A DNA stretch of 64,000 nucleotides. It comes from Sphingomonas koreensis. GTDB lineage: Bacteria > Pseudomonadota > Alphaproteobacteria > Sphingomonadales > Sphingomonadaceae. The notes below the pieces were generated by a model, which was not told the DNA's origin, did not search any database, and worked only from the letters and a program-made list of their open reading frames with translations. Shown piece after piece: positions 31,506-55,690 of the stretch (position 1 is its first letter; every line of letters begins with the position of its first letter). Location of the stretch: assembly GCF_002797435.1 (NCBI RefSeq), contig NZ_PGEN01000001.1, positions 434,001-498,000 on the forward strand, in the 5' to 3' direction. Both the position numbers and the translations under genes were made by a program.

Positions 31506-31522
31506 TTATTGTAATATAATAA
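31506..31522. promoter_or_regulatory. A/T-rich near-palindrome upstream of the receptor
   Basis: TTATTGTAATATAATAA, with TTATT/AATAA arms, is the most A/T-rich spot around and lies about 67 bases before the receptor start. It could be the receptor promoter or a regulator site. No match to a known box can be claimed from one copy. Confidence 0.3.
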
Positions 31523-31588
31523 TTTTGTCGGGTTTTCGGTCTGTCTCCGTCCCTCGGGCATCTCGGTTGCAATACCAAAGGGGGGTTC

Positions 31589-38149: not shown

Positions 38150-38150
38150 A

Positions 38151-40870: not shown

Positions 40871-41604
40871 GCTGCCAGCGGCTCCCCGCCGACCTGGAAG
40901 CGGGCATGAAGCGCACGCACATCGAACCGTTCGGGACCGCTGGCCGCGACCTCATCGGTGACACGCCCGTTCTCGAGAAAAGCGATCCGGTCGGCTACGT
41001 CGGCGGCGGAGAGCAAGTCATGCGTCACCATCAGCACCGCGGTGCCGCGATCGCGCACCTGCGCAACCAGCGCGTTGAAGTCCGCAGTCGCCCGCGGATC
41101 GAGGCCGGACGTGGGCTCGTCGAGCAACAGCACCGGCACCCGGCGCAGCAGCGCGACCGCGATCGCCACCTTCTGTCGCATACCCTTCGAGAAGCCACCG
41201 AGCCGCTGATCCCACGCTTCCTCCTGCAGACCCGCCGCTGCGAACGCCTCGGTGATGTCGCGCCGCGCATGCTGCTCGCCCGAAAGCGCGAGCAAATATT
41301 CGGCATTTTCCGTGGCGCTCAGATGCTCATAAAGCGCAACATTTTCGGGCAGATAGGCGATGCGACGGCGCGCGCCATCCGGATCGCTCCCGGGATCGAC
41401 GCCGCACACAAGGATCGTGCCCGATTGCGCCCGCACGAAGCCGAGCAGCGCTGCAAGCGTGGTCGACTTGCCTGCGCCATTGCCGCCGAGCAGCGCGGTA
41501 ATGCTGCCCGCCGGAACGGAAAGCGTGAGGCCGCGCAGAACCTCCTGCGCGCCATAAGCGAGGGACACATCCTGCAGCAGGACGGACGCTTGATCTTGCG
41601 GCAT
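40867..41604 (-). CDS. ABC transporter ATP-binding protein
   Basis: 245 residues. Walker A is LLGGNGAGKST, signature FSKGMRQKVAIA, Walker B VLLLDEPTSGLDP and the switch His is in VTHDL. GGAG lies six bases before the second of two ATG codons (41604); the first ATG (41607) is only three bases from it. It overlaps the next permease by four bases. It powers the two DUF3526 permeases. It follows the receptor gene at 41657 with 52 bases between, so one transcript from the Zur-like site is likely. Confidence 0.93.
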   Translation of the reverse strand: MPQDQASVLLQDVSLAYGAQEVLRGLTLSVPAGSITALLGGNGAGKSTTLAALLGFVRAQSGTILVCGVDPGSDPDGARRRIAYLPENVALYEHLSATENAEYLLALSGEQHARRDITEAFAAAGLQEEAWDQRLGGFSKGMRQKVAIAVALLRRVPVLLLDEPTSGLDPRATADFNALVAQVRDRGTAVLMVTHDLLSAADVADRIAFLENGRVTDEVAASGPERFDVRALHARFQVGGEPLAA

Positions 41605-41656
41605 CATGATCTCCAAATCAGGTTCGCTGGAAAAGGGCTGCTCACTCGCGCCTTCG

Positions 41657-43777
41657 TCAAAGCCGCAGCTTCAAGGTGGCGAGCGCAGTGCGGGGCGCCC
41701 CCGGCAGAACCCACAGCCGGGCATAGGAATTGACGAAATAGGTTTCGTCGAAGAGGTTGCTGACGACCACGGATGCTTCGACCTTGTCGGTCAGCGCATA
41801 GGATCCGAACAGACGCACGGTGGTGTAGGCGGGAAGCTCAAACGTCGTTCCCACCTCGCCAAGGCGAGAGCTCACATGCAGGGCCGCAACGCCGATCTTC
41901 AGGTCGCGCTCAGCGACGTTGAAGCGGCGCGACATCTGGGCGCTGAGCGTGTGCTTGGGCACATTGAGCAATCGGTCGCCGGGGCTGATCGCGACTCCGT
42001 TGGCGTTGCGCGTGCCCGAAACGACCTCCGCGTCGAGATAGGTATATGAGAACAGCCCGTCGATCGCCCCAGGCAAGCGCCCCGCCAGCTCGAACTCGAA
42101 GCCCTGGCTCCGCGCCTCGCCGACTGCGATCGAGAAGCCGGGATTGGCGATGTCGCTCGTCAGGATATTGCCTTTGGTCAGCCTGAACAGCGAAGCCGTT
42201 CCCGTCAGCCCCGCTACGCTCAGCTTGGCGCCGAGCTCGATGGAGCGCGATGTCTCCGGATCGAACGTGTCACCAGACACGCTGGCGCCCGTGTTCGGGC
42301 GGAAGCCCTCGCCATAGGCAGCGTAGAGGCTGAGGGGTTCAGCGACATGCCAGACCATGCCGGCCTGGGGGCTGATGCGCGATTCCGACTGGCGGGCGAC
42401 CGTCCCGTTCAGGCGATTGGTGATCGACTGCTTGAACGCATCGTAACGTGCGCCGACCCGTATCTCGAGGCGTTCGCCGATCCGGATCTGATCTTGGACA
42501 TAGGCGCCCCAGGATCTTTGCTCGATCGTCCGATCGTTGATCGGGTTCAGCGTCGGCGTGGGATAGCGGCCATAGACGGGATCGAAGATATCGATCTCGA
42601 AGCCCTGCTGAGCAGTGGGATTGGTCGACAGCAACGGCGCACGATAGCCGCGGACCAGCAAGTCGGTGTCGAATTCGTCACGGTCCGCGCCGACGATCAC
42701 GCGGTGCAGACCCAGCGGCCCCTCGAAGCGGCCGCTAAGCTCGGCACGATAGACGCGGTGGTTGCCGTCATAGTCGCGGTATCGCACCTCGCGCGTCAAA
42801 GTGCGGCCGTCCACGAAGAGACGCTGACGCGAGGCCGCGAGTTCAGCATCTGCAGAGGTCCCCTTGAGCTCGGTATCGCGCAAGCCGACGCCCACCAGCA
42901 GGCTCCAGTCCGCGGAGAAATCGTGCTGGAGCGAAACCTGGTGCCCCAACGCCATCGCCTTGTTCGGCCCCAGATTGGGTTCACCGAGGAACCGGTTCCT
43001 CGGGATCAGCTTCAGATTGTCGCCGAGCGCGAAGACGCCCCGGTCGAGCGGGATTTCCTGTCGGGTCGCCTCCAGTTCGTAGACCAGGCTGGTGTTCGGT
43101 CCGAAGCGAAACGAAACGGAGGGGAATATGCCGTAGCGCTTGGACTTGATGGTGTCTCGAAAACTGTCCGCCGCCTCGTAGAAGCCGACCAGTCGCACCG
43201 CTGCGAAACCCGTCGCGGGCAGGTTCACGTCAGCCTCGACCCGGCGGAAGGCGAAACTGCCATATGTCCCTTCAAGCTTGCCGGCGAGCGTATCCGTCGG
43301 CCGCTTGGTCACGAGATTGATGCTGCCGCCCGGCTCGCCGCGACCGAACAGGGCCGCGTTGGGGCCCTTCAGAATCTCGATCCGCTCGATGCCCGAGACG
43401 TCGCGCGGCCCGGCGAAACCACGCCCGGCGTTGAAGCCGTTGACGAGATAGCCGCTGGGGTTGTTCTCGTCGCCGACCAGCCCGCGGATCGCGAAGCTCT
43501 CCCAGAGCCCGCCGAAATTGTTCTGCCGGGCGACCGAGGAAGAGAGGTCCAGCGCATCGGCGAGCCGCGTAATCTGCGCCTCCTCCAAGCGCTCCTCGTT
43601 CAGGAGCGTGATGGACTGCGGAATGTCTGCCACCGGCACGAGCCCTCGATAGGCCTGCCGCTGGCCTGTAACGAGGACATCACCGTCTTGAGGCACGCTC
43701 GCCTCTTGCCCCGCGGCGCCGCTGGGGGCGAGAATGATGGCAATCCCCAGAGAGATACGACCCGCAAAACTTCCCAT
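41657..43777 (-). CDS. TonB-dependent receptor, metal/siderophore type
   Basis: 706 residues. A signal peptide (ending GAAGQ) is followed by the plug (PVADIPQSITLLNEERLEEAQ, then IERIEILKGPNAALFGRGEPGG, the motif typical of siderophore-type receptors), then a barrel ending ALATLKLRL. The ATG at 43777 is preceded by GGAAG. The Zur-like site A (43817-43832) lies 40 bases upstream, where it would cover the promoter. It is first in a leftward operon with the DUF3526 transporter. It probably takes up a metal chelate; whether zinc or iron is not shown by sequence. Confidence 0.9.
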   Translation of the reverse strand: MGSFAGRISLGIAIILAPSGAAGQEASVPQDGDVLVTGQRQAYRGLVPVADIPQSITLLNEERLEEAQITRLADALDLSSSVARQNNFGGLWESFAIRGLVGDENNPSGYLVNGFNAGRGFAGPRDVSGIERIEILKGPNAALFGRGEPGGSINLVTKRPTDTLAGKLEGTYGSFAFRRVEADVNLPATGFAAVRLVGFYEAADSFRDTIKSKRYGIFPSVSFRFGPNTSLVYELEATRQEIPLDRGVFALGDNLKLIPRNRFLGEPNLGPNKAMALGHQVSLQHDFSADWSLLVGVGLRDTELKGTSADAELAASRQRLFVDGRTLTREVRYRDYDGNHRVYRAELSGRFEGPLGLHRVIVGADRDEFDTDLLVRGYRAPLLSTNPTAQQGFEIDIFDPVYGRYPTPTLNPINDRTIEQRSWGAYVQDQIRIGERLEIRVGARYDAFKQSITNRLNGTVARQSESRISPQAGMVWHVAEPLSLYAAYGEGFRPNTGASVSGDTFDPETSRSIELGAKLSVAGLTGTASLFRLTKGNILTSDIANPGFSIAVGEARSQGFEFELAGRLPGAIDGLFSYTYLDAEVVSGTRNANGVAISPGDRLLNVPKHTLSAQMSRRFNVAERDLKIGVAALHVSSRLGEVGTTFELPAYTTVRLFGSYALTDKVEASVVVSNLFDETYFVNSYARLWVLPGAPRTALATLKLRL

Positions 43778-43816: not shown

Positions 43817-43832
43817 AATGATATACCGTATC
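43817..43832 (+). promoter_or_regulatory. Zur-like operator A
   Basis: AATGATATACCGTATC. It shares 15 of 16 positions with site B (read on the minus strand), is close to site D, and shares the ATGATATA half with site C. It lies 40 bases before the receptor-ABC operon. Assignment to Zur rests on the nearby regulator gene. Confidence 0.65.
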
Positions 43833-44004
43833 CCGTCAAGTCCGTTTCCATGTTCGTGACTGCGCAGTGACTGGGTAGCCGCGTTCCAGGCCAGCGCCCG
43901 CCGAACACTACGGGCAAGGGTCAGCCGCGGCCGGATCAGAGCCTCGACTATCGTTCGCCGCCGCCTGTCGATGCGATCCGCAAGCAGCGATAACATCATT
44001 GACG

Positions 44005-44023
44005 AATGATACGCTATATCATT
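44005..44023 (-). promoter_or_regulatory. Zur-like operator B
   Basis: AATGATA-CGCTA-TATCATT is a perfect inverted repeat with seven-base arms, 34 bases before the inferred TTG start of the rightward receptor. The ATG at 44006 falls inside this site, which is one reason it was not chosen as start. Confidence 0.7.
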
Positions 44024-44056
44024 ACCCACGCGCCAAACGCGAGCAGGGGAAATCAA

Positions 44057-46237
44057 TTGCGCAAACGCCTTGGCATCAATTCTGGATCGAACCGGCGGGC
44101 AGCTGGAGCGACCTCGCTTTCCGCCCTGGCCCTCCCTCTACTGCTGCTGCCGCTTCCGGCGTTCGGGCAGGAGGCGCCGACGGAAGAAGTCATCGTCACC
44201 GGCGTCGCCGACCGGCAGCTGCTGCTCGATGCCAAGACGGAGACGGGCAGCCGGCTTGGCCTCACCGCGCGCGAAACGCCGGCGATCGTCGACATCCTGT
44301 CGGAGCGGCAGATTCGGGAATTCGGCGCCCGCACCAATGTCGAAGCACTTAACCGCGCGCCCGGCGTCACATCTTCTCTGCCAGCAACCAGCCCGGGCGC
44401 GCCGACGATGCGGGGCTTCACGTCGAGCGCGGTCGGGCTGCTCTATAACGGTATCCGGGTTACGACGCCGCTCATCTACACCCGCGCAAGCGACAGCTTC
44501 CTTTATGAGAGGATCGAGATCCTGAAGGGGCCGGCGTCGGTCCTCTACGGCGAGGGCGCGCTCGCGGGCGCGATCAACCTCGTTCCCAAGAAAGCGAAGC
44601 TCGGTGCCACCGATGGCTCGCTGCTGGCGAGCTACGGCAGCTTCGAGTCCCTGCGACTTGGCGGAGACGTGAATGCGGCGCTCGGTGATCAAGCGGCCAT
44701 CCGTGCCGTCGCAGCCTATGGCCGCACAGGCGGCTATGTCGATGACAGCGATTCCCGCTTTTTTGCCGCCAGCATGTCGACCCTCCTCAAGCCCGTGGAG
44801 ACGCTGACGATCGAACTCGCGGTCGACTACAGCGAGGATAGCTACGAGACGGCCGATCTCGGCACGCCTCTGGTCCCCCGGGCGATCGCCCGCGATCCGT
44901 CTACGGTCGCGACCGGGCCCGGCGGCCTGGTGATCGACAAGTCGCTGCGCGACACCAACTTCAACGTGACCGATGCGGTGCTCGATTCCGACACGCTCTG
45001 GTTGCGCTCGCGTGCGACCTGGCAGCTCAACGACGCACTCACCTTCACCAACGACCTCACCAGGTATCAATCGGACCGCCAGTTCATCAATGCCGAGGCA
45101 TATAGCTTCAATCCGACGAGCGGGTTGATCGACCGCACCACGGGCATCGTTACGCACGACATCCACCATTGGATCGAGCGACCGGCGCTCAGCGGAGACG
45201 TCACAATCGGCGGCATGCGCAATCGCTTCGCTTTAGGCGCCGAGTTCAGCGAGCTGCGCTTCGCCACCCGGCGCTATTTCGCCACCACGACCTCGGTCGA
45301 TCCGTTCAACCCGGTGCGCGGGCGCTTTCCGGGGGGAACGAGCACACTCCCGCCGGTCAACCAGCGATCGACCGTCGTGGTCCAGTCGGTATTTGGTGAG
45401 AATGCGCTGAACCTGACACCCAAATGGCTGATCGTTGCAGGCGGACGTCACGACTGGATCAAGCTCGATCGGCGCCTCACCGGCAGCGCGCCGTTCGATC
45501 GTCGCTACCGCGCCCTCTCCTGGCGCGTCGGCACGGTCTATGACCTGCTGCCGAAAACCCAGCTGTTCGCGCAGTACAGCCGGGCGATTGCGCCGGTCGG
45601 CAATCTGCTGTCGCTCTCGCTCGTCAACTCCCGGTTCGATCTCACCAAGGGCCGCTCGGTCGAAGCTGGCGTCAAGAGCAGCTTCTGGGGCGATCGCGTC
45701 GACCTGACCCTGGCCGCCTATCATCTGGTTCAGGACGACATCATCACGCGCGATCCCGCCAACCCCGCGCTCAGCGTGCAGGGCGGCCGGCAATCCTCGC
45801 GTGGTGTCGAGCTCTCGCTCTCGGCGGCGGTCACGCGCCAGCTGCGCGTCGACGCGAACTGGACGCGGCTCGACGCACGGTTCGATACGCTGATCGAGGC
45901 CGGCGGCGTCAATCGTGCCGGAAACACACCGCCACGAATTCCCGAAACGGTCGCCAACCTGTTCGCCTTCTACAGCTTCAAGGATATTCCGCTCACCGTG
46001 AGCGCCGGCCTGCGCCATGCCGGGCGCTTCTTCACCGACAACGCCAATACGATTCGTGCCAAAGGCTACACCACGGTCGATGCGGCGATCGGTTACAAGT
46101 TCGGCGCCGGTGAGCTTTCGCTGCGCGGCCGCAATCTCACCGATGCCTTCTACGTCGACTATTCCGACGTCTCGAACAGCCAGTTCCAGGTCGCTGCCCC
46201 GCGCAGCGTCGAGCTCAGCCTGCTGGCTCGCTTCTGA
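44057..46237 (+). CDS. TonB-dependent receptor, metal/siderophore type
   Basis: 726 residues if started at TTG 44057, which has AGGGG eight bases upstream and gives a normal signal peptide (RKRLGINSGSNRRAAGATSL... ending AFGQ). An in-frame ATG at 44006 would add residues and overlap the operator. The plug reads TPAIVDILSERQIREFGA and YERIEILKGPASVLYGEGA. The barrel ends SLLARF. It is transcribed divergently from the other receptor, both with Zur-like sites. It is probably a metal-chelate uptake receptor. It is followed by an ABC-gene remnant. Confidence 0.88.
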   Translation: MRKRLGINSGSNRRAAGATSLSALALPLLLLPLPAFGQEAPTEEVIVTGVADRQLLLDAKTETGSRLGLTARETPAIVDILSERQIREFGARTNVEALNRAPGVTSSLPATSPGAPTMRGFTSSAVGLLYNGIRVTTPLIYTRASDSFLYERIEILKGPASVLYGEGALAGAINLVPKKAKLGATDGSLLASYGSFESLRLGGDVNAALGDQAAIRAVAAYGRTGGYVDDSDSRFFAASMSTLLKPVETLTIELAVDYSEDSYETADLGTPLVPRAIARDPSTVATGPGGLVIDKSLRDTNFNVTDAVLDSDTLWLRSRATWQLNDALTFTNDLTRYQSDRQFINAEAYSFNPTSGLIDRTTGIVTHDIHHWIERPALSGDVTIGGMRNRFALGAEFSELRFATRRYFATTTSVDPFNPVRGRFPGGTSTLPPVNQRSTVVVQSVFGENALNLTPKWLIVAGGRHDWIKLDRRLTGSAPFDRRYRALSWRVGTVYDLLPKTQLFAQYSRAIAPVGNLLSLSLVNSRFDLTKGRSVEAGVKSSFWGDRVDLTLAAYHLVQDDIITRDPANPALSVQGGRQSSRGVELSLSAAVTRQLRVDANWTRLDARFDTLIEAGGVNRAGNTPPRIPETVANLFAFYSFKDIPLTVSAGLRHAGRFFTDNANTIRAKGYTTVDAAIGYKFGAGELSLRGRNLTDAFYVDYSDVSNSQFQVAAPRSVELSLLARF

Positions 46238-46251
46238 AGGAGGAGATGGTC

Positions 46252-46374
46252 ATGCCCGCGCTGGACCTGGACGCCGTTTCCATCGCGTTCAACGGCCACC
46301 GCGCCGTCGATAGGCCTTTGAGGACGCGGCCTGGCCCTGACGCTGTTCAGCTCCGCGCGGTCGCCTCGGCATAA
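46252..46374 (+). pseudogene. truncated start of an ABC ATPase gene
   Basis: A strong site (AAGGAGGAGA) and ATG at 46252 start MPALDLDAVSIAFNGHRAVDRP. This is the usual first beta strand of an ABC ATPase (compare DLDAVSIxFxGxRAVD), but before Walker A the frame passes into the sequence opposite the superoxide dismutase 3' end and stops at 46374. It therefore seems that an ABC gene once followed the receptor and was lost by a deletion ending near 46320. It may still be translated to a 40-residue peptide. Confidence 0.6.
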
Positions 46375-47060
46375 CGGCGCGACACTTCACGCCAGTTCAC
46401 GACCTGCCACCACGCGTCGAGATAGTCGGCGCGGCGGTTGCGGTGCTTGAGATAGTAAGCGTGCTCCCACACGTCGTTGCCAAGGACCGGCGTGCCCCTG
46501 ACCTCTGCAACGTCCATCAGCGGGTTGTCCTGATTGGGCGTGGAAGTGATGAGCAGCTTGCCCTCGGGCGTGACCACCAGCCAGACCCAGCCCGAGCCGA
46601 AACGCCCTATGCCCGCTGCCTTGAATGAAGCCTTCATCGCTTCCATCGAGCCGAACTGCGCGTCGATCGCCCCCGCGAGCTCGCGCGAGGGGGTGCCGCC
46701 CATCTTCGGCGGGGCCATGATCGACCAGAAGAAGCTGTGATTCCAATGACCGCCGCCATTGTTGCGGATCGCAGCGGGCATTGAGCCGGCCTTGGCCAGC
46801 AGTTCCGCGAGCGAGAGGTCTTTCAGTTCGGCATCGCCAGCAACAGCCTTGCTGAGTGCATCGACATAAGCCTGATGATGCCTGCCGTGATGGAGCTTCA
46901 TCGTCTCCGCATCGATCACCGGCTCCAGCGCTTCGGGGGCGTAGGGCAGCGGCGCAAGCGTGAAGATCCCACGCGCAACGGGTGCGGCTGGCGTTGATTG
47001 GGCGAGCCCTTGGGGCGCCGCCAATACCGCCATCAGCGTGAGGACCGTAATCAACCTCAT
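46347..47060 (-). CDS. secreted Fe/Mn superoxide dismutase
   Basis: 237 residues. A signal peptide (MRLITVLTLMAVLAAPQGLAQ) precedes an Fe/Mn-SOD: LPYAPEALEPVIDAETMKLHHGRHHQAY, then NNGGGHWNHSFFW, GSGWVWLV, and DVWEHAYYLKHRNRRADYL. All four metal ligands (three His, one Asp) are present. GAGGAGA fits the ATG at 47060 better than the one at 47066. Secreted Fe/Mn-SODs are less usual than Cu/Zn-SODs in the periplasm. Site C between this gene and merC suggests it is made in zinc shortage as a zinc-free replacement. Confidence 0.93.
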   Translation of the reverse strand: MRLITVLTLMAVLAAPQGLAQSTPAAPVARGIFTLAPLPYAPEALEPVIDAETMKLHHGRHHQAYVDALSKAVAGDAELKDLSLAELLAKAGSMPAAIRNNGGGHWNHSFFWSIMAPPKMGGTPSRELAGAIDAQFGSMEAMKASFKAAGIGRFGSGWVWLVVTPEGKLLITSTPNQDNPLMDVAEVRGTPVLGNDVWEHAYYLKHRNRRADYLDAWWQVVNWREVSRRYAEATARS

Positions 47061-47102
47061 TCCCATCTCTCCTCGCGATAGGATCCACCCGCTTGACAAG
47101 CA

Positions 47103-47118
47103 GGTAACATTATATCAT
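47103..47118 (-). promoter_or_regulatory. Zur-like operator C
   Basis: Read on the minus strand: ATGATATAATGTTACC. It shares ATGATATA with sites A and B and diverges in the other half (GTTACC). It lies 43 bases from the SOD start and 56 bases from the merC start, placed to control both directions. Confidence 0.55.
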
Positions 47119-47173
47119 CTCGCGCGCTTAACAGGACGAGCGGGGGATTGTCCAGCTTCCCGAGGAGCGAAAG

Positions 47174-47551
47174 GTGACGACGATCCGCATGCGACAGCAA
47201 TGGCTCGATGGGCTTGCCATCGGCGCTTCTTCCCTGTGCCTGATCCATTGCCTGTTTCTCCCCTTGGCGCTGATATTGCTGCCCGCGCTCGGCGCGTTCC
47301 TGGCGCTTCCGGAAACCTTTCATTTCTGGGGTTTGGTCGTCGCCGTTCCGACCAGCGCGCTGGCGATCGGCATGGGCTATGCGCACCACCGGCTGCTACT
47401 CCCCGCGGTGCTCGCCGTCAGCGGCATCCTGTTCCTGGGCGCCGCCGAATTGCTGTTTCATGGAACGCGGATCGAGACGCTCCTCGCGGTGCTCGGCTCG
47501 GTCCAACTGGCTGTCGCTCACGCCGTCAACCTACGTGCGGCACAGCACTAG
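47174..47551 (+). CDS. MerC-domain membrane protein
   Basis: 125 residues with four hydrophobic spans. The start has the MerC motif ASSLCLIHCLFLPLALILLPALG with the Cys-x3-Cys pair in the first span. GAGGAG precedes a GTG start at 47174. MerC was first known as a mercury-uptake protein, but MerC-domain proteins also occur next to zur genes, which suggests zinc transport. The zur-like gene starts 13 bases after its stop, so they form an operon. Confidence 0.88.
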   Translation: MTTIRMRQQWLDGLAIGASSLCLIHCLFLPLALILLPALGAFLALPETFHFWGLVVAVPTSALAIGMGYAHHRLLLPAVLAVSGILFLGAAELLFHGTRIETLLAVLGSVQLAVAHAVNLRAAQH

Positions 47552-47564
47552 GCCGCGCCAGGCG

Positions 47565-48011
47565 ATGATCACTCCCGCCGCGCCGGCGATCGCTTCCCCT
47601 TTTCCTGCCGGAGCGCGATTGCAGGATCGGGTTCTGTGGTTGCTACAACAATATGACCGGCCGCTTGGCGCCTATCAGCTGGCGCAGAAACTGACCGCGG
47701 CGAGCGGCTATCCGCACCACCCCAACTCCGTCTACCGTGTGCTCCAGAACCTGATGCAGGAGGGACGGGTGCTGCCGGTCGCCACGACAAATGGCTGGCT
47801 GGCGAAGCGGCTTGCCGGGCCGGCACCGGTGTTCGTTTTGCTGTGCAAGGAATGCGGTAACGCATTGCAGCTGCCGGCGACGGACCTTGAGGACGACCTC
47901 GTCGGAAGTCTCGCAGCCCGCCGATTCCTGCCCAGGCAGGTTTATCTCGAAGTGCTGGGACGCTGCCGCTCCTGCGACGCACATCGCTCCGCAGACATTG
48001 AGTCGGATTGA
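47565..48011 (+). CDS. zur: Fur-family regulator, probably Zur
   Basis: 148 residues. The winged-helix part (QDRVLWLLQQYDRPLGAYQL, YPHHPNSVYRVLQNLMQEGR) is followed by a Zur-style segment (NGWLA then FVLLCKECG). Two cysteine pairs, C94/C97 and C134/C137, form the structural zinc site seen in Fur-family proteins. Its placement with merC, ZnuD and SOD and the four related palindromes support zinc sensing over iron. Site C lies before merC, so the regulator probably controls its own operon. Confidence 0.85.
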   Translation: MITPAAPAIASPFPAGARLQDRVLWLLQQYDRPLGAYQLAQKLTAASGYPHHPNSVYRVLQNLMQEGRVLPVATTNGWLAKRLAGPAPVFVLLCKECGNALQLPATDLEDDLVGSLAARRFLPRQVYLEVLGRCRSCDAHRSADIESD

Positions 48012-48038
48012 CCTACGGATCCGGCGTTCTGAGCCAGG

Positions 48039-50165
48039 TCAGCGCGCGCCCATCTCGTCAAGCAACCGCGATGCGCCATCAACCTTTTCCATCGTCCACA
48101 GCATGTAGCGGCCATCGACATGGATCGAACGGGTGATCGCGGGATCGAACCACCAGTCGGAGATGATCCCTTCGATCGTACCGTCGAACACCAGCCCCGC
48201 AAATTCGCCGCGCGCGTTGAGCGTCGCCGAGCCCGAATTGCCGTTGGTGATATCCACGGTCCCGAGGAAATTGACTGGCAGCGTACCGAGCTCGGGCGCG
48301 GTATAACGACCATAGTCCTTGGCCCTGATCAGATCGACGGTGCGCTCGGGTGCGTTGAAGGGGTCGCGACCGGTCTGCTTCTCCACAATCCCTTCGGCGG
48401 TGGTGAAGGCGGACCATGCCATGCCGTCGCGCTTCTTCGCCGTCACCTTGCCATAGGTGAAGCGGAGCGAACCGTTGGCATCCGGATAGAGCGTCTCGCC
48501 TTGCGTCGCCGCATAGGCGATACGTGCATCCATATAGGCCGAGCGCGCGGCCTGGAGATCGCCGGCACGGGCATCGCTTGCCGCCTCGCGTGCTGCGACA
48601 TCAGGATAGGCGGCGACCGCGAGCCGCACGAACGGATCGGTCGAGCGATCGAATGCGTCGGCCGGCATGTCCAGCAGTGCGAGCCGATCGTTTGTCGTAC
48701 CGAGCTTGGTGTCCCGATAGAGCGTATCGACTCCGATCTTCTCCAGCGCCGCATCGAACCCGGCATTGCGCGCGGCCGGGGGCAGCTTGCGATATTCGGC
48801 GAGTGCCTTTTCGAACAGCGCGCGATCGACTGCCGGATCGAAACGGCGCTCAACTTGTGTCAGCGCCTCCTGCACAGCACGGCGGTCACGATCCTGGAAG
48901 CCGCTCTTGCGCTCGGCATCGGGCTTGGCGCGCTCGAGCGCCCAGCGATAGGCGCGCATCGCCGACGCATAGAGCTGCCCGCGATCGAGCAGGGCGCGGC
49001 GCAGCCCGTCGATATTCGCCGCATTCGCCTCTTGGGTCAGCCGATCGAGGTCGGCGATCGCGTCACCCCATCGCTGCTGCCGCGCGGGGCCGGCGTTGAT
49101 CCAGTCGCGGAACGCCCGCTCGTCCGTTTCCTTGCGCTCGATCAGCCGGATCGTTTCGGCGCCTGCGAGCTGGCCAAGGATCTTCTTCTTGTAGTTGTCA
49201 GCGCCCTTCAGGATCGAGGCGTAACGGATTGCCAGATCCGGCTTGCCCGTCGTCGTGGCGTTGATCGCATCCGAATAGTCGGACAGCAGCCGCTGCTGCA
49301 GCGGATAGAAGCTCTCGAAATAGAAACGCGTCTCGGCCGCGGTGCGATGACGCTCGGTGGTGCCGGGGAACCCAGCGACCATCACGAAATCGCCTTCCTT
49401 CAACCCCTGCTTGGCAATCGGCAGCCACGCCTTGGGGCGGAACGGCACATTGTTCTTCGAAAAGGGCGCCGATGATCCGTCGGGTGCGACATAGGCGCGG
49501 TAGAAGCCGAAGTCGCCGGTGTGGCGCGGCCATTGCCAATTGTCGATCTCACCGCCGAAATTGCCGATCCCGCCTGCGGGCGCATAGACCAGCCGAACGT
49601 CCTGGATCTCGAGCTGCTGCTGGAGGAAATATTGCCGCCCGCCAAAATAGGCGCGCACATCGCAGCGGCGGTTGGCCTGCTTCTCGCACGTCGCGATCAG
49701 CGCCTTGCGGTTGGCCTCGAGACGATCATAGCGTGCCGGCCCGGTCAGCTTCGCCGCACCGCGCAGCACCTCCTTCGTCACATCGCGCAGATCCTCGATC
49801 ACATAGACCCGGCTGCCGGGCGCCGCGGGCAGCTCATCGCCGAGCGAAGCCGCGAGGAACCCGTCGTGCAGATAATTGTGTTGGGGGCTCGAATTATACT
49901 GGATCGATCCATAGACGCAGTGGTGGTTGGTCGCGATCAGCCCCTGCGGGCTGACGAACGCCGCCGAGCAGCCGCCGAGCGACACGATAGCGTTGAGCGG
50001 AGCGCGGTTGGGGTCGCCGAGCAGCTTCGGATCGAGCTCGAGCCCTGCCGCGCGCATCTTGTCGCCGATCGCCTCGGTCTGGCTCGGCAGCCACATGCCC
50101 TCATCGGCGGAGGCGGGAGCTGCGAGCAGAAACAGGAGCGAGAGAAGACGGAAACGCTGAAGCAC
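48039..50165 (-). CDS. S46 family dipeptidyl-peptidase (DPP7/DPP11-like)
   Basis: 708 residues from GTG at 50165 with GAGGAA upstream. A signal peptide (ending APASA) is followed by DEGMWLPSQ. The catalytic His is in GLIATNHHCVYG (about 78-89) and the catalytic Ser in ITNGNSGSATLNARGEFAGL near the C-terminus. Both are typical of S46 serine peptidases. They release dipeptides from peptide N-termini in the periplasm. It lies after the dipeptidase gene in the same direction with a 70-base gap that holds its own short dyad. Confidence 0.92.
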   Translation of the reverse strand: MLQRFRLLSLLFLLAAPASADEGMWLPSQTEAIGDKMRAAGLELDPKLLGDPNRAPLNAIVSLGGCSAAFVSPQGLIATNHHCVYGSIQYNSSPQHNYLHDGFLAASLGDELPAAPGSRVYVIEDLRDVTKEVLRGAAKLTGPARYDRLEANRKALIATCEKQANRRCDVRAYFGGRQYFLQQQLEIQDVRLVYAPAGGIGNFGGEIDNWQWPRHTGDFGFYRAYVAPDGSSAPFSKNNVPFRPKAWLPIAKQGLKEGDFVMVAGFPGTTERHRTAAETRFYFESFYPLQQRLLSDYSDAINATTTGKPDLAIRYASILKGADNYKKKILGQLAGAETIRLIERKETDERAFRDWINAGPARQQRWGDAIADLDRLTQEANAANIDGLRRALLDRGQLYASAMRAYRWALERAKPDAERKSGFQDRDRRAVQEALTQVERRFDPAVDRALFEKALAEYRKLPPAARNAGFDAALEKIGVDTLYRDTKLGTTNDRLALLDMPADAFDRSTDPFVRLAVAAYPDVAAREAASDARAGDLQAARSAYMDARIAYAATQGETLYPDANGSLRFTYGKVTAKKRDGMAWSAFTTAEGIVEKQTGRDPFNAPERTVDLIRAKDYGRYTAPELGTLPVNFLGTVDITNGNSGSATLNARGEFAGLVFDGTIEGIISDWWFDPAITRSIHVDGRYMLWTMEKVDGASRLLDEMGAR

Positions 50166-50183
50166 GGCAATTCCTCGAAGATA

Positions 50184-50196
50184 CAATGTCACATTG
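50184..50196. promoter_or_regulatory. short dyad before the S46 peptidase gene
   Basis: CAATG-TCA-CATTG, preceded by GATA. The stretch GATACAATGTCACA resembles GATATAATGTTACC of site C (11 of 14), so a weak Zur-type site is possible. Confidence 0.3.
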
Positions 50197-50235
50197 CTGG
50201 TAACGCGCGATACGAACGAGTGCAAGCGTGGCCGC

Positions 50236-51486
50236 TCAGCCGGGATCGTTCGCGTCGATCGGGGGCAGGCCCGCCGTGTCGCGCGCCACCGCTTCGACGC
50301 GCTCAATCACGCGCAGGATATTGCCCTGCGCGAGCTTGGCGAGGTCGGTGTCGCTCCAGCCGCGCCGGGCGAGCTCGGCGAACAGCAAGGGATAGCTGTC
50401 CACACCCTTCATCCCCACCGGTCCGGTCCCGCTGATCCCATCATAGTCGGCGCCGAGCCCGACATGATCGTGGCCGGCGACGCGCGCGATATGCTCGACA
50501 TGGTCGGCGACGGTGCGCACATCGACGCGCGGCTCGGGATGCTCGCGCTCCCAGGCCACGAGCGCCGGAGTCGAACGCGGCCCCGCTGGGGTTGCCGGCA
50601 GGCCGCTCGCCTTGACGAAGGCGGTGCGCGCATTGTCCCACTCGTTCCACGCCGTGGACAGGAAGGCGGGGTAGAAGTTCACCATCACCACCCCGCCATT
50701 CTCCGCGATCCCCCGCAGCAGCGTGTCGGGGATATTACGCGGCCTGTCGGCGACCGCGCGCGCCGAAGAATGCGACGCGATCACCGGCGCCTTGGTCGCG
50801 GCGAGCACCGCAGCCATCGTCGCGTCGGACACATGGCTGATATCCACGATCATCCCGATGCGGTTCATCTCGGCGACGACCTGCCGTCCGAACGGCGACA
50901 GACCGCCCGACCGCGGCATATCGGTCGCGGAATCCGCCCAGCTCAGGCTCTTGCCGTGAGTCAGCGTCATGTAAAGTACGCCAAGCTCGCGAAACTGGCG
51001 CAGCACCGACAAACGCCCGCCGAACTGGTGCCCGCCCTCGATCCCCAGCAGCGACGCGATCCGTCCTTCGCTCTTTGCCTTTCGGACATCGGCGGCGGTT
51101 TCCGCCATCGTGAAGACCCGCGGATTCGCCGCAACGACGCGTTGCACAATGTCGATCTGGTCCAGCGTCGCCTGGACCGCCTCCGGGCCGGTGACGTCGG
51201 CGGGAATGTAGAGCGACCAGAACTGGCCGCCGACATGCCCCTTGCGCAGGCGAGGAATGTCGGTCTGCAGCGGCTTTTCGAGGTTCGCCGTATCGCGGGT
51301 GAGATCGACCGCCTCGACCTTGCCCTCATAGGCCTTGCGCAGCTCCCAGGCGAGGTCGTTGTGACCGTCGATCACCGGCGCGACCGACAGCACCCGGTCA
51401 ACGCGCGCAGCGATGGCGGCATCGGGTGGCGGCGCAGCCTGCGCAGTGGCCAGGAGGAACGGAAGGATTGGGAGCAGTGACGGCAT
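50236..51486 (-). CDS. secreted membrane-dipeptidase family (M19) zinc dipeptidase
   Basis: 416 residues with a signal peptide (MPSLLPILPFLLATAQA). Zinc ligands of the renal-dipeptidase family are visible: DGHNDLAWELR (HxD, about 40), GIEGGHQFGG (Glu), DISHVSD and ASHSSARAV (His). HVGLGADYDGI carries the downstream Asp. AGGAAG precedes the ATG at 51486. It cleaves dipeptides, so with the S46 enzyme it could complete peptide breakdown in the periplasm. It starts 13 bases after the PhoX-like gene stop, so the two are co-transcribed. Confidence 0.92.
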   Translation of the reverse strand: MPSLLPILPFLLATAQAAPPPDAAIAARVDRVLSVAPVIDGHNDLAWELRKAYEGKVEAVDLTRDTANLEKPLQTDIPRLRKGHVGGQFWSLYIPADVTGPEAVQATLDQIDIVQRVVAANPRVFTMAETAADVRKAKSEGRIASLLGIEGGHQFGGRLSVLRQFRELGVLYMTLTHGKSLSWADSATDMPRSGGLSPFGRQVVAEMNRIGMIVDISHVSDATMAAVLAATKAPVIASHSSARAVADRPRNIPDTLLRGIAENGGVVMVNFYPAFLSTAWNEWDNARTAFVKASGLPATPAGPRSTPALVAWEREHPEPRVDVRTVADHVEHIARVAGHDHVGLGADYDGISGTGPVGMKGVDSYPLLFAELARRGWSDTDLAKLAQGNILRVIERVEAVARDTAGLPPIDANDPG

Positions 51487-51499
51487 CGCGAGCTTCCTG

Positions 51500-52855
51500 T
51501 CAGAGCCGCCGCCACGGACCGCTGATCGCCAGCGTCGTCGCGGGGCTGTAGAGGTTGACGAACAGCGTCGAACCATCGGGCGAGAAACAGGCGCCGGCAA
51601 GCTCGGTCTGCAACCGGCACCGCCCGACCGGATAGAGACGGCCATCCGGCGTCACCCCGCGCAGATGATTGTCGACCACATCCGTATACTGGTCCTCGCA
51701 CACGATCAGATGGCCATTCGGTCCGACCGTCAGATTGTCGCCGAAGTTGAACATTGCCGGGTCGGTCGATTCGACGAACAGCTGTAGCATCCCGGGCGCG
51801 TCCACTTCGCCAGGTTGGCCTTCGCGCGGTGAAGGCCGGTAGCGCATCACCTGCCCCAGCCCCGCCGCGCCACCCGAGGTGCAGCAGAAATAGCCTTCGC
51901 CAATTCCCCAGTGGATACCCTCGCCGCGCGCGAACCGTGCCGCGCCGGCCTTGTACCCGCGCAGACGCAGATCGTCGTCCGGCGCTTCCACGCCATCAAG
52001 GTCGATCCAGCACGCCGCCTTCCATGCGCCCGGGGTGACGTCGCTGCCCAGCTTGTTCGAGGTGTCGCCGCGTTCGGGTCGATCGCGCAGCCCCAGCGCC
52101 TGCAACCGGCCGCCGCGCGCCAGCTGCCCACGATGATCGGGCAGGAAGCGGTAGAGCAGCCCGTCCTCGCGATCCTCGGTCAAATAGACGATGCCGGTGC
52201 GCGGATCGACCGCCGCAGCTTCGTGATTGAAGCGGCCCATCGCCTTGAGCGGCACCGGATCGACCAGTCCGCGATGCCGCGCTGGCACCTCGAACACCCA
52301 GCCATGATCGCGCGCCACGCCCGCCCCGGCCCGGGTCACATCCTCCTCGCAGCTCAGCCAGCTGCCCCAGGGCGTGGTACCGCCTGCGCAGTTGCGGATC
52401 GTGCCGGCAAGGCTGAGATACTGGCGCTCGACCTTGCCGCTCGCGAGATCATAGACGATCGTGCTCGTGCCGCCAGGCAAGGGCCGACCGGCGGTATCGC
52501 GATCATAGGCGGGCGCACGCGCAGCGTCAGTGCGCGCGAATGGCCCGTCGCCATGATGCCGGGCCTGCAACTCGTGATTGCGGACCAGCGCGACCCGGCG
52601 GCGACCGAGCGGTATGCAGCCCATACCGTCCGCGCGGTCGCCAACGGTGAACCCGTCGTCCATCCGGTCACCGAAGCGGGAGATGACCTTGTAGTGGAAG
52701 CCATCGGGCAAATCGAGCAGACCGGCTGGATCGGCACGCAGCGGTCCGTAGCCGGGTGCAGTCGCCGCAGCGTCGGCTGGCACGCGCGCCAGCGCAGCGA
52801 AAGCGGCGCCGGCGAGTCCGGCGGTGAAGGTCCGGCGATCGATTGTGGAGAACAC
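51500..52855 (-). CDS. PhoX/DUF839 family secreted phosphatase-like protein
   Basis: 451 residues with GTG start at 52855 (GGGAG upstream). A Tat-like signal DRRTFTAGLAGAAFAALA is followed by the DUF839 fold: FHYKVISRFGDRMDDG, RNCAGGTTPWGSWLSCEEDV, MGRFNHEAAAVDPRTG, VYLTEDREDGLLYRFLP and WGIGEGYFCCTSGGAAG. These are typical of the PhoX group, which uses Fe and Ca rather than zinc. An ATG at 52918 lies inside site D and was not used. First gene of the leftward phosphatase-peptidase unit. Confidence 0.87.
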   Translation of the reverse strand: MFSTIDRRTFTAGLAGAAFAALARVPADAAATAPGYGPLRADPAGLLDLPDGFHYKVISRFGDRMDDGFTVGDRADGMGCIPLGRRRVALVRNHELQARHHGDGPFARTDAARAPAYDRDTAGRPLPGGTSTIVYDLASGKVERQYLSLAGTIRNCAGGTTPWGSWLSCEEDVTRAGAGVARDHGWVFEVPARHRGLVDPVPLKAMGRFNHEAAAVDPRTGIVYLTEDREDGLLYRFLPDHRGQLARGGRLQALGLRDRPERGDTSNKLGSDVTPGAWKAACWIDLDGVEAPDDDLRLRGYKAGAARFARGEGIHWGIGEGYFCCTSGGAAGLGQVMRYRPSPREGQPGEVDAPGMLQLFVESTDPAMFNFGDNLTVGPNGHLIVCEDQYTDVVDNHLRGVTPDGRLYPVGRCRLQTELAGACFSPDGSTLFVNLYSPATTLAISGPWRRL

Positions 52856-52903
52856 GTCGTCACACTCCCGAGGGGTTTCGCTTGCATCCCGCGTCGAGTG
52901 AGG

Positions 52904-52921
52904 GATATGATGTACCATATC
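52904..52921 (+). promoter_or_regulatory. Zur-like operator D
   Basis: GATATGATGTACCATATC is nearly palindromic (GATATG/CATATC). The core ATGATGTACCATATC matches site A at 13 of 15 positions. It lies between the PhoX-like gene (left) and the small protein that heads the ABC-DUF3299-ZnuD operon (right), and 18 bases before that start. Confidence 0.65.
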
Positions 52922-53246: not shown

Positions 53247-53903
53247 ATGCCCCGAGTATTGGAAATCAGTAGCCTGACCTTTCGCTATGGCGGACAGGCG
53301 GTGGTGGATGGCTTCGACCTCGTCCAGGAGCCGGGCGACCATCGCGTGCTGCTCGGGCCATCGGGGTCGGGCAAGACCACGCTGATCAACCTGATCGCCG
53401 GGCTGCTGACGCCGCAGAGCGGCCGCATCATGATCGATGGCGAGTCGATCGGCGACCTGCCCGCAGCGAAGCGCGACGATCTGCGCCGGCGCAAGATCGG
53501 CGTGGTGTTCCAGACGCTGCGGCTGGTCGCCGCACTCGACGTAACCGCCAACCTCATGCTCGCTCAGCGCCTCGCTGGGCAGCGGCCCGATCGAGGTGAA
53601 ATCCAGGCATTGCTCGCCGCACTGGACCTGACGCACCGCGCGCACGCCCGGCCGCGCGAGCTTAGCCAGGGTGAGGCGCAGCGCGCGGCGATCGCGCGCG
53701 GTCTGGTGGCCCACCCCAAGCTGCTCATTGCCGATGAACCAACCTCCGCGCTCGACGACTGCAATGCCGAACGCGTCGCGCAGCTGCTGATCGAAACCGC
53801 CAACACCCATGGCTCGACCCTGCTGGTCGCCACGCATGACGCGCGGATCAAGGCGTTCATCCCTGACGCGGTGACGCTGGCCCCGGTGCGCGAGGCCGAC
53901 TGA
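53247..53903 (+). CDS. LolD/MacB-type ABC ATPase
   Basis: 218 residues. Walker A is LLGPSGSGKTTL, signature ELSQGEAQRAAIARGL, Walker B LLIADEPTSAL and the switch His is in ATHDAR. The size and motifs match ATPases that partner FtsX-type permeases. The ribosome site is weak. Its stop overlaps the permease ATG as TGATG. Together with the permease and the DUF3299 protein, the order resembles the zinc-regulated zrg-type loci predicted in other proteobacteria. Confidence 0.92.
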   Translation: MPRVLEISSLTFRYGGQAVVDGFDLVQEPGDHRVLLGPSGSGKTTLINLIAGLLTPQSGRIMIDGESIGDLPAAKRDDLRRRKIGVVFQTLRLVAALDVTANLMLAQRLAGQRPDRGEIQALLAALDLTHRAHARPRELSQGEAQRAAIARGLVAHPKLLIADEPTSALDDCNAERVAQLLIETANTHGSTLLVATHDARIKAFIPDAVTLAPVREAD

Positions 53904-55186
53904 TGTTCAGCCTTGCCCTCGCCTATATGCGCGATCGCGCGCTCACCACCTTGCTCAATGTCGTGCTGCTTGGCCTCGCAGTCGCGACGCTCGCGATCCT
54001 GCTCCTGTTCTCGACCCAGCTCACCGACCGGCTCGAGCGCGACGCGCAGGGCATCGACCTGGTGGTCGGAGCCAAGGGCTCACCGCTGCAGCTGATCCTG
54101 TCCAGCATCTATCAGCTCGATACTCCGACCGGCAATATTCCGCTGGACAGTGTTGCACTGCTCCGCCGCGATCCCTCGATCGCGCGCGTGATCCCGCTGG
54201 CGATGGGCGACAGCTTCCGCGGCTATCGCATCGTCGGTACCGAACCCGGCTATCTCGACCTTTATGGCGCGAAGCTCGCGCAGGGGCGCGTCTTCGCCAA
54301 GTCGGGCGACGCGGTGCTCGGCGCGACCGCCGCGCGCGAGCTTGGCGCCGGGGTCGGCCAGCGCTTTGTCGGCAGCCACGGGTTCGGCTCGGGCGAAGGC
54401 GTCACCGGCCATGACGAGCATCCCTTCACCACCGTCGGCATCCTCGCGCCGACCGGCACCGTGGTCGATCGGCTGATCCTCACACCGGTCGAGAGCGTCT
54501 GGGATGTGCATGGCATCGGTCACGAGCACCATGAGGGCGAGGCAAAAGAGGGCGAGGCGCATGAGCACGAGCATGACGGCCATGAGAAGGCCCATGAGCA
54601 TGAGGAACCCGCGCTGATCGGCGCGGCCGGAACGCTCGAGCCCGAGGTCACCGCCCTGCTCGTCAGCTACCGCTCAGCCCTGGCTGCGGTTCGCGTGCCA
54701 AGCTTCGTCAACCGCCAGACCAATATGCAGGCTGCCGTTCCTGCGCAGGAGACCGCGCGGCTGCTCACCCTTTTCGGCGCCGGCATCGAGGGCGCGCGGA
54801 TCTTCGCCTGGCTGCTTGCAGCGACCGGGGGTCTCGCGATCTTCGTCGCCTTGCTCAATGCTGCCCGCGCGCGCGAAGGCGATCTGGCGTTGTTGCGCGT
54901 CATGGGCGCGACGCGAGCGTCAGTGTTCGGAACGATCCTGCTTGAGGGGCTGCTGACCGCCGCAGCCGGCGCGCTGCTCGGACTGGCGGCCGCGCATCTC
55001 GCGCTGGCCGTCGCGCGCGCGCTGTTCGATCCGCTTGCGGAAATCGGCCTCGATCCCTGGCGGGTCCATCCGGGTGAACTGGCGATCGTCGCCGGAGTAC
55101 TGACAATCGGCCTCGTCGCCGCGCTGGTCCCCGCGCTCCGCGTGTTCCGCGTCGATCTCGCCCGCACGCTCGCGCGGGCCCAATAG
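53903..55186 (+). CDS. FtsX-type permease with His-rich periplasmic insert
   Basis: 427 residues. One span is near the N-terminus (LLNVVLLGLAVATLAILLLF), followed by a large periplasmic domain and three C-terminal spans (IFAWLLAATGGLAIFVALLNAA, VFGTILLEGLLTAAAGALLG, LAIVAGVLTIGLVAALVPAL). The periplasmic part contains a dense His/Glu/Asp stretch at about residues 210-234 (GHEHHEGEAKEGEAHEHE), a probable zinc-binding loop not needed for lipoprotein release. FtsX permeases do not usually import ions; with the ATPase it may move or reshape an envelope component for zinc uptake. Confidence 0.9.
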   Translation: MFSLALAYMRDRALTTLLNVVLLGLAVATLAILLLFSTQLTDRLERDAQGIDLVVGAKGSPLQLILSSIYQLDTPTGNIPLDSVALLRRDPSIARVIPLAMGDSFRGYRIVGTEPGYLDLYGAKLAQGRVFAKSGDAVLGATAARELGAGVGQRFVGSHGFGSGEGVTGHDEHPFTTVGILAPTGTVVDRLILTPVESVWDVHGIGHEHHEGEAKEGEAHEHEHDGHEKAHEHEEPALIGAAGTLEPEVTALLVSYRSALAAVRVPSFVNRQTNMQAAVPAQETARLLTLFGAGIEGARIFAWLLAATGGLAIFVALLNAARAREGDLALLRVMGATRASVFGTILLEGLLTAAAGALLGLAAAHLALAVARALFDPLAEIGLDPWRVHPGELAIVAGVLTIGLVAALVPALRVFRVDLARTLARAQ

Positions 55187-55189
55187 GAT

Positions 55190-55690
55190 ATGCAGATGAT
55201 GAAGGCTCCGATCGTTGCGGCGCTGGTCCTCTCGCTTCTGAGCGTGCCTGCCGCCGCGCAGCTCATCGGCGGCGGTCCAAAGCAGGACGTCAAGGACATC
55301 TGGAAGCCCGCCGCGACGCCGCAGGGCGGCACCTCATGGAGGTTGCTGGAGAGCACCAAGGAGACGCAGCGCGTCGCCAGCGGCGTGATCTACTCCAAGC
55401 CGGTCTTCCCGCCAGGCGTGAAGGCGCTCAACGGCAAGCAGATCAAGGTGGCAGGCTGGATGATGCCGCTCGACAAGGCGGCGCGCCAGAAACGGTTCGT
55501 GCTGCTTGCCTATCCGCCGGGCTGCCCGTTCCATTTCCACGCCATGCCCAACCAGTTCATCGAGGTACTGGCGCCGGCCGGCGTGCCGCTCAACGAGCGT
55601 GACCCGATGGTGATTGCAGGCACGCTCCAGCTCACCGGCCAGGACGAGAGCGGCATCTTCTACCGCCTGGTCAACGCGAAGAAGCTTTGA
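55190..55690 (+). CDS. DUF3299 periplasmic protein
   Basis: 166 residues. A signal peptide (ending AAAQ) is followed by the DUF3299 domain: NGKQIKVAGWMMPLDKAARQ and FVLLAYPPGCPFHFHAMPNQFIEV with a Cys/His/Met cluster that could bind metal. It ends with a conserved strand (GIFYRLVNAKKL). It starts three bases after the permease stop. DUF3299 proteins occur in zinc-regulated clusters beside ABC/FtsX genes; their precise role is unknown. Confidence 0.87.
   Translation: MQMMKAPIVAALVLSLLSVPAAAQLIGGGPKQDVKDIWKPAATPQGGTSWRLLESTKETQRVASGVIYSKPVFPPGVKALNGKQIKVAGWMMPLDKAARQKRFVLLAYPPGCPFHFHAMPNQFIEVLAPAGVPLNERDPMVIAGTLQLTGQDESGIFYRLVNAKKL

Follow-up and report, generated by a model that had tools for sequence, protein, structure and literature searches.

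We analyzed a stretch of 64,000 nucleotides of the Sphingomonas koreensis chromosome (C1:434001-498000, inside a single contig of 4,398,689 bases; hereafter the window, in whose numbering positions are given unless prefixed C1), which carries an island of zinc-acquisition-like genes with short palindromes at their promoters. These palindromes appear to be operators of the regulator Zur: the inverted repeats fit the Zur motif of this lineage at promoters of zinc genes, and zinc-dependent binding of Zur to them is predicted. In the middle of the island lies zur2, which encodes a divergent Fur-family protein without a sensory zinc site, whereas a canonical Zur is encoded elsewhere in the chromosome. 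The island comprises the following features, with box scores given in bits of a position weight matrix (PWM) derived from merC promoters.

36218-38461: TonB barrel protein, after the ZnuGHI-like genes
38151-39434 and 39431-40870, minus strand: two DUF3526/ABC-2 permeases, ZnuGHI-like
40867-41616, minus strand: ABC ATPase, ZnuGHI-like by its domains
41657-43777, minus strand: TonB-dependent receptor, first gene of the ZnuK/ZnuGHI-like set
43817-43835: predicted Zur box 1, AATGATATACCGTATCCCG, about 40 nt ahead of the receptor start at 43777 (minus strand), 12.5 bits
44005-44023: predicted Zur box 2, AATGATACGCTATATCATT, perfect 7-bp arms, about 33 nt ahead of the second receptor's inferred TTG start, 25.2 bits
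44057-46237, plus strand: second TonB-dependent receptor (inferred TTG start at 44057)
46347-47060, minus strand: Fe/Mn superoxide dismutase (SOD), N-terminus signal-peptide-like by eye
47101-47119: predicted Zur box 3, CAGGTAACATTATATCATC, between the divergently oriented SOD (minus) and merC2-zur2 (plus), 20.2 bits
47174-47551, plus strand: merC2, membrane protein of the MerC family (PF03203), its gene immediately ahead of zur2
47565-48011, plus strand: zur2, divergent Fur-family protein of 148 aa without the sensory zinc site
48039-50165, minus strand: S46 peptidase, N-terminus signal-peptide-like by eye
50177-50195: predicted Zur box 5, GAAGATACAATGTCACATT, about 11 nt ahead of the inferred GTG start of the S46 peptidase at 50165 (minus strand), 22.4 bits
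50236-51486, minus strand: M19 membrane dipeptidase (start at 51486 inferred from the N-terminus)
51500-52858, minus strand: PhoX-family protein
52901-52921: predicted Zur box 4, core GATATGATGTACCATATC, between the divergently oriented PhoX gene (minus) and ABC/ZnuD set (plus), 10.6 bits
52939-53226, plus strand: small exported-looking protein at the head of the ABC/ZnuD set
53247-53903, 53903-55186 and 55190-55690, plus strand: ABC ATPase, MacB/FtsX permease and DUF3299 protein
56170-58320, plus strand: ZnuD-like TonB-dependent receptor (NF038289 match)

Predicted Zur boxes in the window

A preliminary description of this DNA had proposed boxes 1 to 4 as a Zur regulon with a common string, ATGATATAnCGTATC. 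All four palindromes exist, in intergenic gaps close to gene starts (some of these starts being inferred), and all are among the top five places of the window when scored with the independently derived motif. The string itself is exact at two of the sites (43818-43832 and 44008-44022) but deviates by two mismatches at site 4 and by three at site 3. That no equally good copy exists elsewhere in the window did not hold, as the place at 50177-50195 outscores three of the four; four sites are thus an undercount in the window, and also in the genome, where further boxes lie elsewhere in the chromosome.

Ranked by PWM score, the window places are 44005, 50177, 47101, 43817, 52901 and 31508 (the last two at 10.6 bits each), and the rest reach at most 6.5 bits. 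Six places therefore score at least 10 bits and three at least 15 bits, while 500 control PWMs with permuted half-sites gave a mean of 0.51 places at or above 10 bits; 0.4% of these controls reached five such places, and none of the 500 had three at or above 15 bits. First-order Markov simulations of 64 kb (30 runs) had a mean best score of 8.0 bits, the largest being 19.7. The Zur-like place at 31508-31526 (ATTGTAATATAATAATTTT) lies about 60 nt ahead of an open reading frame (ORF) for a TonB receptor of 1064 aa; it is AT-rich and may be a chance occurrence.

Searched genome-wide with up to three mismatches, the originally proposed string alone separates poorly, because its 98 places compare with 43 for a backwards control, a roughly twofold difference. 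At up to two mismatches, it finds three places in the window and one other, which lies ahead of another merC.

An independent operator motif from merC promoters

Nearly all genomes of the family (196 of 199) have merC, and its promoters served as the training set for a de novo palindromic expectation-maximization (EM) search. The 40 regions used, all from other genomes of the family, were plus-strand merC rows and a subset of those available; some came from close kin, and two were identical at the site. The unused rows include those of genomes G032, G060, G132 and G193, whose GATA-type sites had already been noticed before they were left out. At widths of 17, 19, 21 and 23, the search converged on ATGTTACA-N-TGTAACAT (ATGTTAYA-N-TRTAACAT), with an estimated share of sequences carrying a site of 0.99, which is the upper limit set for that estimate. 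Width 18 gave a weaker related form and width 20 a different palindrome (A.CGAAAGG..CCTTTCG.T). The half-sites vary as ATG[T/A][T/G/A]A, so that GATA, GTTA, GTGA and mixed half-sites in the 40 promoters all fall into one motif. Such variants also precede merC elsewhere in the family, which does not support the earlier supposition that the window motif is new. The Zur-regulon reading, in contrast, is supported: the sites fit the family's Zur operator, and their neighbors are zinc-acquisition-like and resemble those known from Caulobacter.

Palindrome counting in 54 loci from Zur searches revealed no common Zur-like operator, and just four of these loci (three distinct places) came within one mismatch of the patterns tried. 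A palindrome-like string, ATAATATATATTATCAT, recurs across many genera (for example in loci L131, L133 and L138), and nothing seen ties it to Zur.

The same motif marks further promoters in the chromosome, at loci that were chosen by pattern search and then scored with the PWM. It reaches 25.2 bits ahead of a third merC (merC3, C1:4073925), 23.4 bits ahead of merC1-zur1 (C1:1619669), 19.4 and 16.0 bits ahead of two other ZnuD-like genes, and 21.5 bits (C1:624384) and 15.4 bits (C1:3175103) ahead of two efflux-type operons. One of the latter encodes OEP and HlyD-type proteins according to Pfam, and the other an OEP-like ORF recognized by eye. Of their small leading proteins, one has a weak likeness to DUF2946 (15.4 bits, cut-off 23.7), and the other gave no DUF2946 match. 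One efflux-type operon has a second, weaker box of 9.5 bits (region C1:3175103-3175186). Only the best places stand out, as the GTTA pattern with up to three mismatches is not enriched genome-wide (312 places versus 294 in the control). Separately, a short palindrome around ATGCTATAGCAT at C1:518338 lies right ahead of an aldehyde dehydrogenase-like start, with a MarR-like ORF about 1.5 kb off, both recognized by eye.

Conservation in Sphingomonas suaedae

A matching island in S. suaedae encodes PhoX, M19, S46, ABC ATPase, FtsX, DUF3299 and ZnuD proteins at 82-88% identity, together with merC (63%) and zur2 (48%); the stretches of that genome that were searched gave no match to SOD. A 21.3-bit site precedes the S46 gene and an 11.5-bit site lies in the PhoX/ABC gap. 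Aligned cores are kept between the two genomes (TGTGACATT[G/A]TATC and GGGATATGATGTA...TATCTC). The footprints lend support without deciding the matter, because the flanking sequence is also partly alike; the case for site 4 as a putative operator comes mainly from this conservation.

Gene content and comparison with Caulobacter

The genes around the boxes are supported, by analogy, as a zinc-acquisition-like set that resembles the Zur regulon of Caulobacter crescentus. Next to box 1, a TonB receptor, an ATPase and two permeases follow one another as in ZnuK-ZnuGHI, a likeness of domains and gene order rather than of directly compared sequences; the second permease falls under the ABC-2 cut-off and carries DUF3526. 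The ZnuD-like receptor matches NF038289 with 413 bits, below the model cut-off of 950, and this is its top match among the NCBIfam matches listed. The ATPase, FtsX-like permease and DUF3299 protein can be likened, by description only, to the Zrg zinc uptake system of Vibrio. The 64-kb window contains no tRNA gene that would mark an island border.

According to the accessible part of its description, the C. crescentus regulon features an inverted repeat GTTA-N5-TAAC and TonB receptors, the DUF2946 protein CC2720 heads the czr operon, czrCBA is activated by Zur, and a zur mutant has lowered sodA, for which that part lists no Zur site (PMC4176598). As far as this source goes, S. koreensis shares the GTTA/TAAC repeat with its N5 spacer, the TonB receptors and a receptor adjoining an ABC-2 ATPase and two permeases, and the Zur-like boxes ahead of its two efflux-type operons recall the DUF2946-czr efflux operon with its Zur site. 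Because promoters of merC, zur, znuD and efflux operons at other places in the chromosome bear the merC-derived motif as well, the regulon is of the Caulobacter kind. Unlike the regulon as described there, S. koreensis has a second, sensor-less Zur and an SOD with a predicted Zur site, and its other predicted targets include MerC, the S46 peptidase, PhoX and the ABC-FtsX-DUF3299-ZnuD set.

While the operator is of a known kind, what appears to be new are the predicted targets: the S46 peptidase, PhoX, the exported-looking Fe/Mn-SOD and MerC. Among the papers listed for Zur in combination with MerC, PhoX or the names Sphingomonas and Sphingomonadaceae, with subscription papers mostly beyond reach, none dealt with the Zur regulon of a sphingomonad, and an earlier computational prediction for Sphingomonadales, for instance in RegPrecise, may exist.

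Two Zur proteins

A search of the genome with PF01475 found four places, scoring 132 bits (Fur-like), 43.5 bits (at C1:1618804), 16.2 bits (below the cut-off and PadR-like in appearance) and 12.5 bits (the window protein, likewise below the cut-off). The 43.5-bit protein (C1:1618762-1619241) is the canonical Zur, because it contains the HPxCxHDC signature and its gene lies behind its own merC. This signature is common to 51 of the 53 Zur-like ORFs extracted from the Zur-search loci; it is missing from the Zur2 of genome G311 and from a second, divergent Zur of G184 (L204), where HPHEHD replaces it and which is a possible intermediate in sensor loss.

Zur2 shares about 20-30% identity with the canonical Zur and stays below the cut-offs of both PF01475 (12.6 versus 23.1 bits) and the NCBIfam Zur model (32 versus 167). 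Its AlphaFold model (predicted local distance difference test score 93.2) nevertheless has the winged-helix and dimerization fold of the Fur family. The best matches are Zur structures, led by zinc- and DNA-bound E. coli Zur, and the matches listed are, by title, Fur-family or other winged-helix chains. The presumed Zur-like regulator in the middle of the island is thus borne out in its fold, but not as the zinc-sensing regulator of the set, since its sensory ligands are lost and the canonical Zur lies elsewhere.

For residue comparison, we aligned 12 Zur2 proteins (the window protein and P0002-P0012; the short P0013 and P0014 were excluded) with 38 Zur-like proteins drawn from the 95 other matches of a profile search. 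The 57 omitted rows include P0025, P0053, P0066, P0077 and P0093, and the comparison leans to canonical Zur, because some omitted rows also lack sensory residues. Equivalences to E. coli Zur are our own, from alignments, with the numbering in the accessible part of PMC4219657. Tyr37, Tyr57, Arg58 and the four cysteines of the Cys4 structural zinc site (two CxxC) are invariant in 12/12 Zur2 and 38/38 others. In contrast, the position of Thr25 is Thr in all 38 others versus one Zur2, that of Arg28 is Arg in 35 versus one, that of Cys88 is Cys in 21 versus none, and that of Glu111 is Glu in 23 versus none (Gln in 11 of the 12). In the stretch from the recognition helix to CxxC, His and Cys residues together number at least two in 89 of the 95 other matches, compared with 2/12 Zur2. 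Zur2 has its own signature in Trp78 (12/12, 0/38 others), His52 (10/12, 0/38 others), and Asn54 and Ser55 (both 12/12). Measured against E. coli Zur (4mtd), the window protein has changed all four site-B ligands described in that part of the source (His77, Cys88, His96 and Glu111; HPxCxHDC in sphingomonads), and hence does not have the sensory zinc site, and its Thr25 and Arg28 positions are changed as well (PMC4219657). In E. coli Zur, as the same part reports, C88S loses DNA binding and repression, and the Cys4 site is critical for dimerization (PMC4219657).

Zur2 proteins are rare. An initial protein search gave four matches, one of which was the protein's own 99% cluster. In the profile search of 5.8 billion proteins, 14 of 109 matches (P0001-P0014) belong to Zur2 according to a cut that we placed where scores fall from 114 to 92 bits and Pfam FUR annotation starts; none of the 14 has such annotation, and the four with an organism name come from Sphingomonas or Sandaracinobacter. 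With a 13-row model, 3 of 295 genus genomes reach Zur2-level scores (203.8, 190.8 and 164.5 bits; next 100.2). Among 397 family genomes, a 4-row model added one in G212 (107.4 bits); counts outside the genus are lower bounds, because this model did not separate Zur2 from other Zur (77.7 bits for the Zur2 of G311, 79.7 for the best other Zur), a distinction that the 13-row model makes. Two Zur2 scans over genome contigs gave no matches, and none of the 15 records from a plasmid search exceeded 32.5% identity. In the phylogenetic tree, 13 Zur2 rows form one node (SH-aLRT 84), which is drawn as open and has several long branches.

The canonical Zur is present in all four Zur2 genomes examined (93% identity to that of S. 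koreensis in S. suaedae, 81% in G311, 58% in G212), which makes Zur2 an addition to Zur and not a substitute. In these four genomes, zur2 lies beside merC or ABC-FtsX-DUF3299 genes, and a Zur box precedes the gene set (20.2 bits in the window, 25.0 in G311, 23.1 in G212 and 16.5 in S. suaedae). The S. suaedae box precedes a methyltransferase-like ORF that overlaps merC, followed by zur2, so that a joint operon is presumed there. In addition, both G311 and G212 carry a COG0523 (cobW) gene in divergent orientation, and their boxes (AATGATATACCATCACATT and TATGTTATAACATCACACA, respectively) are not of pure GATA type. In G311, Sphingomonas sp. BGYR3, a tyrosine integrase (PF00589) adjoins the zur2 zinc gene set (L126, 8088-9377), which suggests a mobile zinc island.

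Proposed mechanism and alternatives

The sites with their statistics and conservation, the motif across the family, the presence of two Zur genes and the residue losses were computed; from these we infer operon structure, Zur binding, derepression upon zinc loss and all of Zur2's action. With sufficient zinc, dimers of the canonical Zur would sit on the palindromes and keep the island silent. When zinc falls, Zur would leave at least five promoters, and the cell would derepress its uptake functions: the receptor with the ZnuGHI-like ABC-2 system, the second receptor, the ABC-FtsX-DUF3299-ZnuD set and MerC. Candidates for freeing or sparing zinc would appear at the same time, namely the S46 and M19 peptidases, PhoX and the Fe/Mn-SOD; going by what is generally known of their families, PhoX and Fe/Mn-SOD may stand in for zinc enzymes. 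Zur2 would be derepressed as well and, with a Zur box ahead of its gene, is expected to accumulate mainly in starvation, where it may modulate the same promoters. We consider this account as a whole probable. Within it, motif and targets give good support to the canonical Zur as the island's putative repressor, while the role of Zur2 as a starvation-induced modulator is what we infer from gene position and residue losses.

Several observations weigh against this account. Sites 1 and 4 are weak and score about as high as the stray place at 31508. The sites of this genome split suggestively into a GTTA type (merC1-zur1, a znuD, an efflux operon) and a GATA type (the island, merC3), which would fit separate regulators, although the family data make this less likely. 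The DNA-bound-like conformation of the Zur2 model is possibly borrowed, because 38 of the 50 alignment rows are other Zur-like proteins, and the model is no evidence that Zur2 could close in the absence of zinc. Finally, sensor loss is not unique to Zur2, as P0053, P0066, P0077 and P0093 also have almost no sensory residues; these four form a second, separate Zur-like group (AYAARR...CRRCGRAVEK) on its own branch in the tree.

How Zur2 acts is the least certain part. It could represent a new regulatory class, a zinc-blind, starvation-induced paralog acting back on the regulon of the canonical Zur, be it as anti-repressor or as zinc-independent repressor, which we put forward tentatively as a real possibility that falls short of an expectation. 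A sensor-less Zur paralog was not evident in the literature on Zur paralogs and dominant negatives, judged from titles, and none of the terms sought in PMC10957091 occurs there. That Zur2 is specifically a starvation-induced feedback repressor is rather doubtful, and so, to the same degree, is the idea that it senses another signal.

Somewhat less likely still, Zur2 could be an anti-repressor, forming mixed dimers with the canonical Zur during starvation that cannot close on DNA, so that positive feedback would make derepression sharper and longer. It keeps the Cys4 site while sensory site and Thr25/Arg28 backbone contacts are mostly lost, and each of the four Zur2 genomes combines a canonical Zur with a box of at least 16.5 bits ahead of the zur2 set. 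However, the invariance of its base-reading Tyr and Arg suggests that DNA binding is apparently still under selection, and mixed dimers are uncertain at so low an identity between the two proteins.

It is unlikely that Zur2 is a decaying copy without a role and that the canonical Zur alone governs the island. Its rarity in the genus and its missed PF01475 cut-off would fit decay, whereas its conserved signature, the grouping of its 13 rows on the tree and its kept linkage to merC or ABC-FtsX-DUF3299 in four genomes would not.

Quite improbable, too, are two parallel regulons, one in which Zur2 runs the island and merC3 through GATA-N5-TATC and another in which the canonical Zur uses GTTA-N5-TAAC. 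That each Zur protein might have an operator type of its own had been our first impression: the three GTTA-type places of this genome (up to one mismatch) precede merC1-zur1, a znuD and an efflux-type operon, and its only two perfect GATA-type places are in the island and ahead of merC3. The family-wide pattern search and the merC motif, which unites all half-site types, made this unlikely. GATA-type palindromes (up to one mismatch) occur in 215 of 397 family genomes although Zur2 is rare, a part of them being ATAATATATATTATCAT, which is not evidently a Zur box. At least six lie directly ahead of merC by eye (G032, G054, G060, G132, G188 and G193), and none of these six genomes is among the 127 that match the first Zur2 alignment at E <= 1e-14. 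The Zur2-side boxes of G212 and G311 point the same way. That the palindromes belong to another regulator such as Fur, or are chance AT-rich promoter sequence, is very improbable despite the two weak sites and the poor separation by the original string, in view of the motif's training on other genomes, the permuted controls, the conserved sites and the target genes.

Significance

Our analysis yields an explicit, testable zinc regulon for Sphingomonas and predicts that S46 peptidases, PhoX, MerC and an exported-looking SOD are tied to zinc starvation. It also raises the general question of whether selection can keep a Fur-family protein without a sensory metal site as regulator of its own parent regulator. 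If Zur2 indeed belongs to such a feedback class, what is otherwise a simple repressor circuit would become a switch, or its response would be damped.

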